A stretch of 42,130 nucleotides of DNA from an uncultured Porphyromonadaceae bacterium (GTDB lineage Bacteria > Bacteroidota > Bacteroidia > Bacteroidales > Muribaculaceae). The notes beneath the pieces were generated by a model. That model was not told where the DNA came from. It saw nothing but the letters and a program-made list of their open reading frames with translations, and made no database searches. Within the stretch, counting starts at the first letter, position 1. The number at the start of each line of letters is the position of its first letter. Where the stretch lies: contig CAMWNT010000006.1 of NCBI GenBank assembly GCA_947175695.1, positions 1-42,130 of the forward strand, read 5' to 3'. The position numbers and the translations under genes were made by a program. Shown piece after piece: positions 1,382 to 18,726 of the stretch.

Positions 1382-2515
1382 TCAATCGAGTCGACGTGCC
1401 CCGGCACTGATCACTACCGGATAGACCTCCGGCGCATGACCATAGCGCTCACGGAAACGCCCGACAGCCTCCGTCACGAAATGCGACATCCGATCCTTCG
1501 CGACAAGATTAATCGTACAGCCGCCGAAGCCGCCGCCCATTATGCGCGAACCCGCCACGCCGCATTCGCGAGCCACTTCATTCAAGAAATCAAGCTCCTC
1601 GCAACTGACCTCATAATCCGCCGACAGTCCGCGATGGGTGGCATACATCTGTCGACCGACCTCCTCATAATCGCCGGCAAGCAGCGCGTCGCACACAGTC
1701 AGGACGCGCTCCTTCTCCTCGATCACAAACTTTGCTCTTTTGTAATCCTCATCGCTGATATCGCTTTTGGCAGCCTCGAGCATATCCATCGTTGCGTCGC
1801 GCAACGTCTCGACTCCAAGACGCGCGGCCACACGCTCACACGACTCACGCCGACGATTGTAGGGCGATCCGGCAAGCTCATGCTTCACCTTCGAATCAAT
1901 GAGCACAAGTTCATAATCCGCCGGATCAAACGGGAAATACTCATATTCCATCGACCGGCAATCGAGGCGTATCAGCTTTCCGCGCTGACCCATCACTGAA
2001 GCAAACTGATCCATGATGCCGCAATTGACGCCGCAGTAGTTGTGCTCGGTCGACTGGCCGATGCGAGCCAGCTCGATACGATCGATACGATTGTCGTTGA
2101 ACAGATCGTTGAGCGCGAAAGCGAAACACGACTCCAGCGCGGCCGACGAACTCAGTCCGGCTCCCAGAGGCACATCACCGGCAAACACCGCATCAAATCC
2201 CTTGACCGTGCCCCCGCGCTTGATGATCTCGCGCGCAACGCCAAACACATAGCGTGCCCACGACTGCCGCGGAGCATCCTTCTCCTCAAGACCGAATTCG
2301 GCATACTCACCGAGATTGACGGCATAGACCCGCACTCGCTCGCCGGCGTTAGGGGCCACGGCCGCCATTATCCCCTTGTCGATGGCTCCGGGAAACACAA
2401 ACCCGCCGTTATAGTCGGTGTGCTCGCCGATCAGATTTATGCGACCCGCCGAAGCGTAAAGCGTCGGCGATGATGTGAATCTTTCCTTAAACTCCTTGAT
2501 AATTTGGTTTTTCAT
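1382..2515 (-). CDS. galK: Galactokinase
   Basis: It phosphorylates galactose to galactose-1-phosphate with ATP, the first committed step of the Leloir pathway in the cytoplasm. The 377-residue protein has the galactokinase signature GRINLIGEHTDYNGG near residue 24, the GHMP-kinase ATP loop PLGAGLSSSAA near residue 116, and the C-terminal motif GGGFGGCTIN. Length is typical. The ATG at 2515 lies about 75 nt downstream of a good Bacteroidetes promoter. No galM, galT or transporter is adjacent; the permease upstream in coordinates is convergent and separated by a terminator, so galK appears to be monocistronic here. Confidence 0.96.
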   Translation of the reverse strand: MKNQIIKEFKERFTSSPTLYASAGRINLIGEHTDYNGGFVFPGAIDKGIMAAVAPNAGERVRVYAVNLGEYAEFGLEEKDAPRQSWARYVFGVAREIIKRGGTVKGFDAVFAGDVPLGAGLSSSAALESCFAFALNDLFNDNRIDRIELARIGQSTEHNYCGVNCGIMDQFASVMGQRGKLIRLDCRSMEYEYFPFDPADYELVLIDSKVKHELAGSPYNRRRESCERVAARLGVETLRDATMDMLEAAKSDISDEDYKRAKFVIEEKERVLTVCDALLAGDYEEVGRQMYATHRGLSADYEVSCEELDFLNEVARECGVAGSRIMGGGFGGCTINLVAKDRMSHFVTEAVGRFRERYGHAPEVYPVVISAGARRLD

Positions 2516-2743: not shown

Positions 2744-2774
2744 TTTGAATTGCGAAGGAAATGGAGTAACTTTG
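2744..2774 (+). promoter_or_regulatory. Promoter of the first hemerythrin-LuxR gene
   Basis: TTTG (2744-2747), 19 bp, then TAACTTTG (2767-2774): a full match to the Bacteroidetes consensus. The expected start, about 5-8 nt downstream, coincides with the first unit of the minisatellite, so the array would be transcribed as 5' leader. Confidence 0.65.
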
Positions 2775-2783
2775 ATATCCGGC

Positions 2784-2936
2784 GCTCTCAGTGCTCCCGG
2801 CGCTCTCAGTGCTCATAGTGCTCTCAGTGCTCATAGTGCTCTCAGTGCTCATAGTGCTCTCAGTGCTCTCAGTGCTCATAGTGCTCATAGTGCTCATAGT
2901 GCTCCCGGCGCTCCCGGCGCTCCCGGCGCTCCCCAA
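2784..2936. repeat. 9-bp minisatellite, 17 units
   Basis: Seventeen contiguous 9-bp units (the last degenerate) come in three types: A = GCTCTCAGT (6 copies), B = GCTCATAGT (6) and C = GCTCCCGGC (4). The order is A C A B A B A B A A B B B C C C, then GCTCCCCAA. Because 9 is a multiple of 3, the frame into the downstream gene stays open at any copy number, and several units contain an in-frame GTG. The array lies between the promoter and the ATG at 2956, so it is either a repetitive 5' leader or a hydrophobic N-terminal extension made of LPA/LIV/LSV triplets. Confidence 0.95.
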
Positions 2937-2955
2937 ATTAGACTTTACCCTCGAC

Positions 2956-3918
2956 ATGATACACAAACATCAAGGCTATCTACCCTCACACACCATGCGC
3001 GATCTGATCCGCGACAACGCCCTGCTGCTCCCGGCAATAGGAAGATTCGACATAGCTTTCGGATTCGGCGACAACAGCGTCAGTCAGGTATGCGAGGCCA
3101 ATAATGTCGACACCGACACCTTCCTAAGCGTCTGCAATCTACTGAGCGACAATAAAGTCGACCCTCGGCTCATATCTCTTCCATCGCTCATGGCCTATCT
3201 CAAACGCGCCCATGCCGCATTCCTTGATGTCGATCTTCCCAAAATCCGCCACCATCTGCTCGAAGCCATCAACTGCTCCGAAACAAACGAAGTGGCGCTA
3301 CTGCTGATCAGATTCTACGACGACTATGTGGCGGAGGTCAAAAACCATATGGATTATGAAAACAACGTCATTTTCAAATACGTAGAAGGGCTGCTCAACA
3401 ACGATATCGACCCCGATTTCTCGATCTCCGGCTTCTCGGTCAACCATAACCATATGGCAGCCAAACTCAATGAACTAAAAGACATTTTCATCTACCACTA
3501 CAAGCAGAAAGACACCTACAGACTCAGCACCGTGCTCTTCGACATCATCAACTGCGAACGCGATCTGATATCCCACTTCAACGTCGAAAGCCGACTGTTT
3601 ATCCCGGCTGTGGAGATGCTCGAAAACAGTCTGCGCGAGAAGCACGACAACAACTCGCAGGGGAATGCCGACGACAGCGCCGCCTCCGACAATCAACTCG
3701 ATCTATTGAGCGAACGCGAAAAAGACATTATCCGCGCCGTGGCATATGGCAAAGCCAACAAAGAGATCGCCGACGAACTCTGCATTTCGGTGCACACCGT
3801 CGCCACCCACCGCCGCAACATCAGTGCCAAACTCGGCATCCACACATCGGCCGGCCTAATCATATTCGCCATCATCAACCACCTCGTCGATCTCAACGAC
3901 GTCAAATCCAAGTGGTAA
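2956..3918 (+). CDS. Hemerythrin-like domain plus LuxR-type DNA-binding regulator (copy 1)
   Basis: A 320-residue cytoplasmic regulator. Residues 12-75 resemble the N-terminal domain of RIC/ScdA iron-sulfur repair proteins. Residues 80-225 look like a hemerythrin four-helix bundle with possible diiron ligands His86, His131-x3-Glu135, His164/166 and His207-x3-Glu211. Residues 250-305 are a LuxR/NarL helix-turn-helix (LSEREKDIIRAVAYGKANKE). By family knowledge the bundle could sense O2, NO or iron and control DNA binding; this is inference. The ATG at 2956 is chosen because the paralogue at 8232-9215 aligns from just after it. The frame is open upstream through the minisatellite, and a GTG start at 2791 would add 55 hydrophobic residues. 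No histidine kinase or receiver domain is present. Confidence 0.85.
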   Translation: MIHKHQGYLPSHTMRDLIRDNALLLPAIGRFDIAFGFGDNSVSQVCEANNVDTDTFLSVCNLLSDNKVDPRLISLPSLMAYLKRAHAAFLDVDLPKIRHHLLEAINCSETNEVALLLIRFYDDYVAEVKNHMDYENNVIFKYVEGLLNNDIDPDFSISGFSVNHNHMAAKLNELKDIFIYHYKQKDTYRLSTVLFDIINCERDLISHFNVESRLFIPAVEMLENSLREKHDNNSQGNADDSAASDNQLDLLSEREKDIIRAVAYGKANKEIADELCISVHTVATHRRNISAKLGIHTSAGLIIFAIINHLVDLNDVKSKW

Positions 3919-8231: not shown

Positions 8232-9215
8232 TTATGAAGGGCTCGACAGACTGACGCCGTCGATATCGATAAGATGATGAATTATCGCGAATATGGTCAA
8301 GCCGGCGGCGGAATGGATGCCCAGCTTGGCGGTGATGTTGCGCCGATAGGTGGTCACTGTGTGAAACGACAGCTTGAGATCATCGGCGATCTCTTTGTTT
8401 GACAATCCACGGGCCACACAGCGGATGATATCCTTCTCGCGGTCGGAAAGAGTGGCGGGATCGGCATCGGCCACCTCGGTCGGCGCGACAACCGACGGCT
8501 CCGCGACTGTAGGCTCGCTGGCCACTTTCTGCTCGAGCCGCTTCACGGCCGGCACAAACAGCGTGTCCTCCACCTGACAATGGCTGATCAGATCATGTTC
8601 GCAATTGATGATGTCGAACAGTGCCGAATTGAGCAGGTCGTTGTCTTTCTGATTATAGTGGTAGATGAAGATATCCTTCAGGTCGTTGAGTTTTTCGACT
8701 ATTCCGGTGTGTCCCTCTTCATATTCCCTGATGCTGAATCCGGGCGTCAGTCGCCCCGCGCGGAGAGCCTCCACATATTCGAAAATCGTTGTGTTCTCAT
8801 GCCCCATATGGCGCTCCACTTCCCCGACATAATCGTCATACATCCTCATCAGCAGGAAGGGCACATCCGAAGAGTCCGAACAGTTGATCGATTCTATCAG
8901 TTTGCGGCGTATCGTCGGGAGGAGAAACTCAAGGAAATAAGAATGAGCGCGACGCAGATAGCCCATCAGCGAATGCAGATCCACTACATATCCGCTGAAA
9001 TCACGACCGGAGATAAAATTGCAGACCGCAAGGAATGTCGGGCAATCCACATCATTCTCCCGGCAGAGATCCTCGACCCGCTTGTCGCCGAATCCGAGGG
9101 GCAAGCCGAAGCGACTCATCACCATGAGCAGGAGATTATTGTCGATTATAAGGGAGCGCATGGTGTCGGTCGGGCGATAGGGGCGCGCTGTGCCGGATAA
9201 TGTGGATTGATTCAT
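8232..9215 (-). CDS. Hemerythrin-like domain plus LuxR-type DNA-binding regulator (copy 2)
   Basis: Paralogue of the protein at 2956-3918, aligning over nearly the full length (327 residues). It contains the same RIC/ScdA-like N-terminal segment (GFGDKRVEDLCRENDV) and a helical bundle with His91, His136-x3-Glu140, His169 and His212-x3-Glu216. A variable Ala/Glu/Pro/Thr linker at about 230-255 leads to a LuxR-type helix-turn-helix (LSDREKDIIRCVARGLSNKE). One histidine expected in YtfE-type sites, between 91 and 136, is not obvious in either copy, so the metal site may be modified. Unlike copy 1 it has an ordinary leader without tandem repeats. Likely role: redox- or gas-responsive transcription factor (inference). 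Confidence 0.85.
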   Translation of the reverse strand: MNQSTLSGTARPYRPTDTMRSLIIDNNLLLMVMSRFGLPLGFGDKRVEDLCRENDVDCPTFLAVCNFISGRDFSGYVVDLHSLMGYLRRAHSYFLEFLLPTIRRKLIESINCSDSSDVPFLLMRMYDDYVGEVERHMGHENTTIFEYVEALRAGRLTPGFSIREYEEGHTGIVEKLNDLKDIFIYHYNQKDNDLLNSALFDIINCEHDLISHCQVEDTLFVPAVKRLEQKVASEPTVAEPSVVAPTEVADADPATLSDREKDIIRCVARGLSNKEIADDLKLSFHTVTTYRRNITAKLGIHSAAGLTIFAIIHHLIDIDGVSLSSPS

Positions 9216-18620: not shown

Positions 18621-18639
18621 AGAGCTTCAATAGAGCTAA

Positions 18640-18711
18640 GATCCCCGGGATTCCCAAGATCCCCGGGATTCCCGAGATCCTCAAGATCCCCAATATTCCC
18701 GAGATTCCCGA
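18640..18711. repeat. Second 9-bp minisatellite, 8 units
   Basis: Eight contiguous 9-bp units of the form GATYCCCRR (GATCCCCGG, GATTCCCAA, GATCCCCGG, GATTCCCGA, GATCCTCAA, GATCCCCAA, TATTCCCGA, GATTCCCGA) begin 20 nt after the guaD stop and end 16 nt before the terminator. It has the same period as the array at 2784-2936 but a different sequence. Confidence 0.93.
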
Positions 18712-18726
18712 GAGTTATTATAAAGG

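Follow-up and report, generated by a model that had tools for sequence, protein, structure and literature searches.

The window (the whole 42,130-nt stretch of DNA analysed) carries at 2956..3918 (+) a gene for a 320-aa protein that, on profile matches and with its start placed by homologues, fuses a hemerythrin-like, weakly RIC-like domain to a LuxR-type helix-turn-helix (HTH) domain. The protein matched Pfam GerE with an E value of 2.9e-17 and scored just under the cut-off for Pfam hemerythrin HHE (24.2 bits, cut-off 25.3); its match to NCBIfam RIC, the iron-sulfur-repair di-iron family, was weak (35.7 bits, cut-off 204.7). A paralogue at 8232..9215 (-), 52% identical to the regulator and above the Pfam hemerythrin cut-off, had been described as free of any array, and we found none in the 140 nt inspected upstream of it. 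The nearest named relatives of the regulator are Muribaculaceae, for example Paramuribaculum intestinale (68%), and 96 of 101 genus genomes (the window's own genome counted) had a match, many of the matches covering only part of the protein. In many genus genomes, the hemerythrin part and the LuxR-type HTH matched in adjacent reading frames (such as G103:C14:70938-71627 and 72004-72222), as if the fused regulator also existed as two genes in members of the genus. On the other side of the intergenic space ahead of the regulator gene lies a divergent reading frame (1382-2515, minus strand), which we take to be galactokinase-like.

That intergenic space contains a 9-bp tandem array at 2784..2927 (+), delimited with Tandem Repeats Finder, lag-9 identity and a unit-by-unit reading. 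It consists of 16 exact units of three types, T (GCTCTCAGT, six copies), A (GCTCATAGT, six copies), and C (GCTCCCGGC, four copies), in the order TCTATATATTAAACCC. Unit reading also identified a decayed unit on the 3' side (GCTCCCCAA, 2928..2936, +), followed by a repeat-free spacer of 19 nt (2937..2955, +) that runs up to the start codon; the decayed unit on the 5' side (ATATCCGGC, 2775..2783, +) lies approximately where transcription is predicted to start. The initial annotation had been right about the 16 intact units of three types, about their placement between a promoter motif and the start codon, and about the 19 nt that separate the end of the array (the decayed unit, at 2936) from the ATG at 2956; however, it had counted one degenerate unit in all, rather than one on each side, and had begun the array at 2744, which is the start of the -33 box, instead of at 2784. 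The lag-9 identity over 2775-2934 was 119 of 151, a value lowered by the alternation of the units, compared with a mean of 41.4 and a maximum of 60 in 2000 mononucleotide shuffles, and the best Tandem Repeats Finder row had a period of 36 and a score of 183. The array is thus a tandem short-unit repeat beyond chance, that is, a simple sequence repeat or minisatellite. Because the order of the units includes runs of identical ones (TATATA, AAA, and CCC in the unit letters), duplications of one and two units look likely.

The array lies 3' of the predicted promoter motif. A putative -33 box TTTG (2744..2747, +), itself within GTTTTG, and a putative -7 box TAACTTTG 19 nt past it (2767..2774, +) match the Bacteroidetes sigma-ABfr consensus as it appears in the excerpt of PMC7366714 used here; the transcription start is a prediction. 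From the -7 motif to the start codon, the window has 181 nt, compared with 1 to 109 nt (median, 34) in 37 homologues, for which the distance was taken to the extrapolated start. Since the same excerpt gives a median 5' untranslated region (UTR) of 32 nt for Bacteroides thetaiotaomicron, with more than 100 nt in 13.5% of mRNAs (PMC7366714), the window leader would be long, yet not unheard of. In silico, the leader RNA (2779-2990) folds at -56.2 kcal/mol into a ladder of AGUGCU self-pairings. A structured leader was nevertheless rejected, as shuffles averaged -53.8 kcal/mol (z -0.66) and 49 of 200 folded at least equally well, which counts against the suggestion in the initial annotation that leader structure acts as a tuning element. 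Folded as DNA, the minus strand of 2779-2934 did worse than shuffles (z +2.62), and Rfam at gathering thresholds gave no match anywhere in the window.

The start codon at ATG 2956 is backed by homologues: at 18 Muribaculaceae loci (L095-L112), the alignment began at residue 1 in 12 cases, at residue 2 in one, and at residues 7-9 in five. Upstream of this ATG, the frame is open from 2776 (it is closed by a TGA at 2773) and contains 12 in-frame GTGs. The observation that many units carry an in-frame GTG therefore stands, but the use of these codons as multiple start sites is unlikely, given that homologues start at or near the ATG. The array might, on a coding reading, be translated from one of the 12 GTGs into a variable hydrophobic N-terminus, and the open frame that runs from 2776 through the ATG, the two arrays of the same family that sit inside the 3' ends of reading frames (see below), and the choice of GTG 2791 by a hexamer-scored ORF caller before we reset the start by hand would all agree with this. 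Two of the three reading frames of the array are, however, open through unit composition alone; an extended protein is unlikely because the homologues start at or near the window ATG; and in the homologues, the -7 motif precedes the start by a median of 34 nt, which leaves an N-terminal extension no room. We regard translation of the array into a variable N-terminus as scarcely credible.

We compiled 48 homologue loci (that of the window's own genome included), which yielded 40 distinct leaders once duplicates, matches starting past residue 12, and loci too close to an end had been dropped; at about 50% identity, some of these homologues may be orthologous to the paralogue instead. TAnnTTTG was present in 38 of the 40 leaders. 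Apart from the window's own, none of the 39 homologue leaders contained an array of 7- or 9-bp units or any CTC-type pair. Of the 38 leaders with a -7 motif, 31 had GTATT in the preceding 30 nt, mostly at the position of the -33 box, and in the L077 promoter it lies inside the palindrome CAATACCCAAATTTGGGTATTG; the window leader has no GTATT there and reads GTTTTG (2742-2747) where the homologues mostly have it. GTATT, or CAATACCCAAATTTGGGTATTG, is possibly an autoregulatory operator that was lost or changed at the window gene, and a LuxR-type regulator that binds its own promoter would fit such a pattern.

Elsewhere in the genome, the 9-mer is dispersed. A strict two-unit pattern gave 34 matches on 7 contigs (reversed control, 1), and a looser pattern that allowed one mismatch was noisy (52 and 22 matches, compared with 24 and 21 for the control). 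We read 11 stretches of this genome (the window included; fetched stretches L063 and L064 were left out) for arrays with three or more CTCn(C/T)(A/G)G units and found ten arrays at nine loci, namely, C6 (the window), C15, C17, C21, C55 (two arrays), C56, C60, C126, and C133; the C121 and C21:8130 stretches had no array of at least three units. Among the nine loci, no array of this family exceeds the window array in length, with its 16 units of only three exact types. The C6 and C56 arrays lie past a promoter motif and ahead of a gene, in putative leaders, the C56 array 73 nt after TAACTTTG and with a short frame also called over it by the ORF caller. The C15 and C17 arrays lie between tandem genes, those of C55 are in a convergent space, and those of C21 and C133 are antisense to both neighbors. 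At C60 (L035:1982-2053) and C126 (L060:1889-1942), in reading frames that are presumably QueG-like and topoisomerase-A-like, respectively, the array reaches into the 3' end of the coding region; both stretches are Ser/Gln rich, and the C60 array encodes Ser/Gln/Cys repeats. The two C55 arrays (L033:1934-2014) stand head to head, partly complementary by eye, just ahead of a terminator-like hairpin. The gene after the C15 array, which we assume to be MscS-like, had matches in 14 of 16 genomes searched, and none of the 12 distinct homologue leaders of that gene had an array at the C15 position. Compared by eye, the 60-nt flanks of the arrays in this genome look unrelated; two arrays of G026 (L241 and L242) have a flank in common. 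A second 9-bp array of the window, AAGATCCCCGAGATTCCC (18638..18713, +), lies just past the stop codon of a 449-aa reading frame that we take to be amidohydrolase-like.

The wider population of short-unit arrays was surveyed in 822 kb (40 stretches plus the window, with 679 called genes), about a third of the genome and drawn from large contigs rather than at random; genes were called with the hexamer-scored ORF caller, and the start of the window gene was set by hand to 2956. Intergenic lag runs numbered 24 at 7 bp, 20 at 9, 16 at 14, 14 at 18, and 13 at 21, and at other periods there were 1 each at 5, 6, and 8, 6 at 10, and 3 at 11. For the related G001, 400 kb gave 0 at 7 bp and 1 at 9, the highest count being 5 at 11. 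The array motifs in the sample included TTTTAGG, TTAAGGnCn, TTAGCTAnn, AATTAGnCC, GGTCAGACA, GATTCTCGG, and GCTCnCAGT. A context count at lags 7, 9, 14, 18, 21, and 27 gave 51 arrays with a period of 7, 9, or a multiple of these, of which 40 were intergenic, 5 lay within genes, and 6 were found at the edges of stretches (one of the last a poly-C contig end); in this third of the genome, then, the arrays occur many to a genome, as simple sequence repeats do. The 40 intergenic arrays fell into convergent (14), tandem (24), and divergent (2) spaces, compared with 4.3, 27.3, and 8.4 expected by length, and the nearest gene end was a 3' end in 31 and a 5' end in 9. Random placement put a mean of 17.6 (sd, 3.0) nearest a 3' end, and none of 1000 placements reached 31. 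Only the window array, 1 of the 40, lies between a TAnnTTTG and a start, so that its leader position is an exception among the sampled arrays; C56, outside the sample, is a second such case. In some intergenic spaces, TTTTAGG arrays faced CCTAAAA- or CCTAATA-type arrays as inverted pairs (L154:5541-5820, L146:10688-10908, and L150:19811-19966).

Other genomes were scanned in sets with one genome per species. The strict three-unit pattern matched 1 of 61 genomes, that of the window itself. The loose 9-mer pattern matched 11 of 111 genus genomes (the window's own included), with 57 matches in G000, 29 in G108 (some of which span N), 20 in G133, 14 in G026, and 8 in G107, and the reversed control was positive in two, G000 (1) and G062 (17), the latter probably by virtue of a different 9-bp array of its own. 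Three copies of TTTTAGG were found in 7 of the 111 and three copies of TTAGCTAnn in 10 (G001 among them), with no control matches. Across the family, 9 of 198 genomes matched, from 6 of 30 genera, and because the control was positive in 6 genomes (1-4 matches), the four genomes with one or two matches prove little. Clear sets were present in G000 (57), G224 (55), G151 (16), G107 (8), and G285 (4), from four genera, and the recurrence of the 9-mer among other Muribaculaceae is patchy. Many matches to the pattern were seen in G108, G133, and G026 of the same genus and in G224 and G151 of other genera. In 20 stretches from ten other genus genomes, the arrays likewise occupied tandem, convergent, and divergent spaces and occurred in either orientation.

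We think it probable that a dispersed 9-bp simple repeat gave rise to the window array by lineage-specific expansion, having either arisen in the leader or been copied into it. The dispersed repeat has the core CTCn(C/T)(A/G)Gnn and is of a kind that fills intergenic spaces here and does so patchily in other Muribaculaceae. Once present, the window array would have grown by replication slippage (which we infer) or unequal exchange, probably in one- and two-unit steps, as the runs of identical units suggest. It is probably transcribed within a leader of about 175 nt, whose final 19 nt, up to the start codon, are repeat-free, and its location in a leader is most likely an accident of its place in a genome prone to simple-repeat expansion. 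Several observations sit less easily with such an expansion: the window array, which lies exactly between a promoter motif and a start, is the longest at the nine loci; at C56, too, the array comes after TAACTTTG and ahead of a gene; and for 9 of the 40 sampled arrays, the closest gene end is a 5' end. In addition, slippage alone does not account for the appearance of the 9-mer in several genera, the one-mismatch pattern is noisy relative to its control, and a repair defect, considered as a cause, was dropped, none having been found since MutS1 and MutL are present. It is also conceivable, if rather improbable, that the CTCnCAGnn arrays across genera, rather than being independent products of slippage, are one motif that a motif-specific and perhaps templated process has copied from locus to locus and genome to genome, and that the copies in leaders then tune the gene by their length.

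The initial annotation had proposed a phase-variation-like switch, in which slippage would alter the number of units in the 5' UTR and the length or structure of the leader would set the level of the regulator. The position of the array between the promoter motif and the ATG, the long distance from the -7 motif to the start relative to homologues, and the identical-unit runs, which suggest recent change in copy number, are what such a rheostat would lead one to expect, and in the Moraxella uspA2 5' UTR, a change in repeat copy number alters expression (cited in PMC4679880, as excerpted). Nevertheless, with 9-mer arrays at nine loci, 31 of 40 intergenic arrays nearest 3' ends, arrays seldom found between a promoter motif and a start, no array in any of the 39 homologue leaders, and an RNA fold not above shuffles, a switch dedicated to this leader is not supported, and we consider a leader-length rheostat unlikely. 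Because the 9-mer adjoins several genes, the units could instead be clustered sites at which a DNA- or RNA-binding regulator of those genes binds, a role that has been proposed for heptamer repeats near and upstream of starts (PMC4679880, in the extract used). The arrays, however, lie in both orientations, in convergent spaces, and in the ends of coding regions; several further families of 9-mers and 7-mers are present in the genome; and the few neighbors that can be named have no obvious common function, all of which makes a binding-site cluster very improbable. Returning to the expansion of a dispersed repeat, we infer that the effect of the array on expression of the regulator is small or incidental, and a modest effect through leader length is possible.

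By itself, the window array adds another bacterial simple repeat, this one in a leader, and the wider pattern matters more. This gut species has intergenic spaces crowded with arrays of 7 and 9 bp that are built from a few motifs, and the one related species sampled is nearly without them, a contrast that offers a natural comparison for the origin and spread of repeats in bacteria. The 7- and 9-bp arrays are candidate variable-number tandem repeat (VNTR) markers for strain typing, and what merits pursuit is the reappearance of one 9-mer across several genera. In the open-access papers searched, we found no report of intergenic tandem repeats in Muribaculaceae and none of hemerythrin-LuxR transcriptional regulators in Bacteroidetes.

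Dispersed intergenic arrays of short units are known from cyanobacteria as short tandemly repeated repetitive (STRR) sequences, which differ from the arrays described here in unit length and host phylum. The window array fits the description of prokaryotic long simple sequence repeats (LSSRs), with units of 5-11 nt, in the work of Mrazek and co-workers, as far as the extract of PMC4679880 goes. Like the arrays here, LSSRs in that extract have a short tandem unit, occur many to a genome, are scattered phylogenetically, include abundant heptamers, and have units in multiples of three in coding regions; unlike them, the arrays here combine 7- and 9-bp families in one genome and share one 9-mer core among several genera. 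The TAACTGA heptamer repeats of Beggiatoaceae, Cyanobacteria, and some Bacteroidetes (PMC4679880, same extract) are likewise tandem arrays of one short motif at many intergenic places, patchy among species and, as here, sometimes missing from the corresponding site of a close relative. The window units are, however, GCTCTCAGT, GCTCATAGT, and GCTCCCGGC rather than TAACTGA, and whereas the arrays of the Beggiatoaceae strain are reported in the extract to lie mostly just upstream of start codons, 31 of the 40 intergenic arrays sampled here are nearest a gene 3' end. BrickBuilt of Porphyromonas gingivalis (PMC4596501, as excerpted) is also an intergenic minisatellite present in many copies in a Bacteroidales genome, but its unit is 23 bp and it is carried within a miniature inverted-repeat transposable element (MITE) with a leader and a tail, whereas the arrays here had no common flanks by eye. 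As a tandem repeat in the leader of one gene, a predicted leader in the present case, the window array resembles the AGAT repeat in the 5' UTR of Moraxella catarrhalis uspA2, which in the extract of PMC4679880 ranges from 6 to 23 copies among strains and alters expression.
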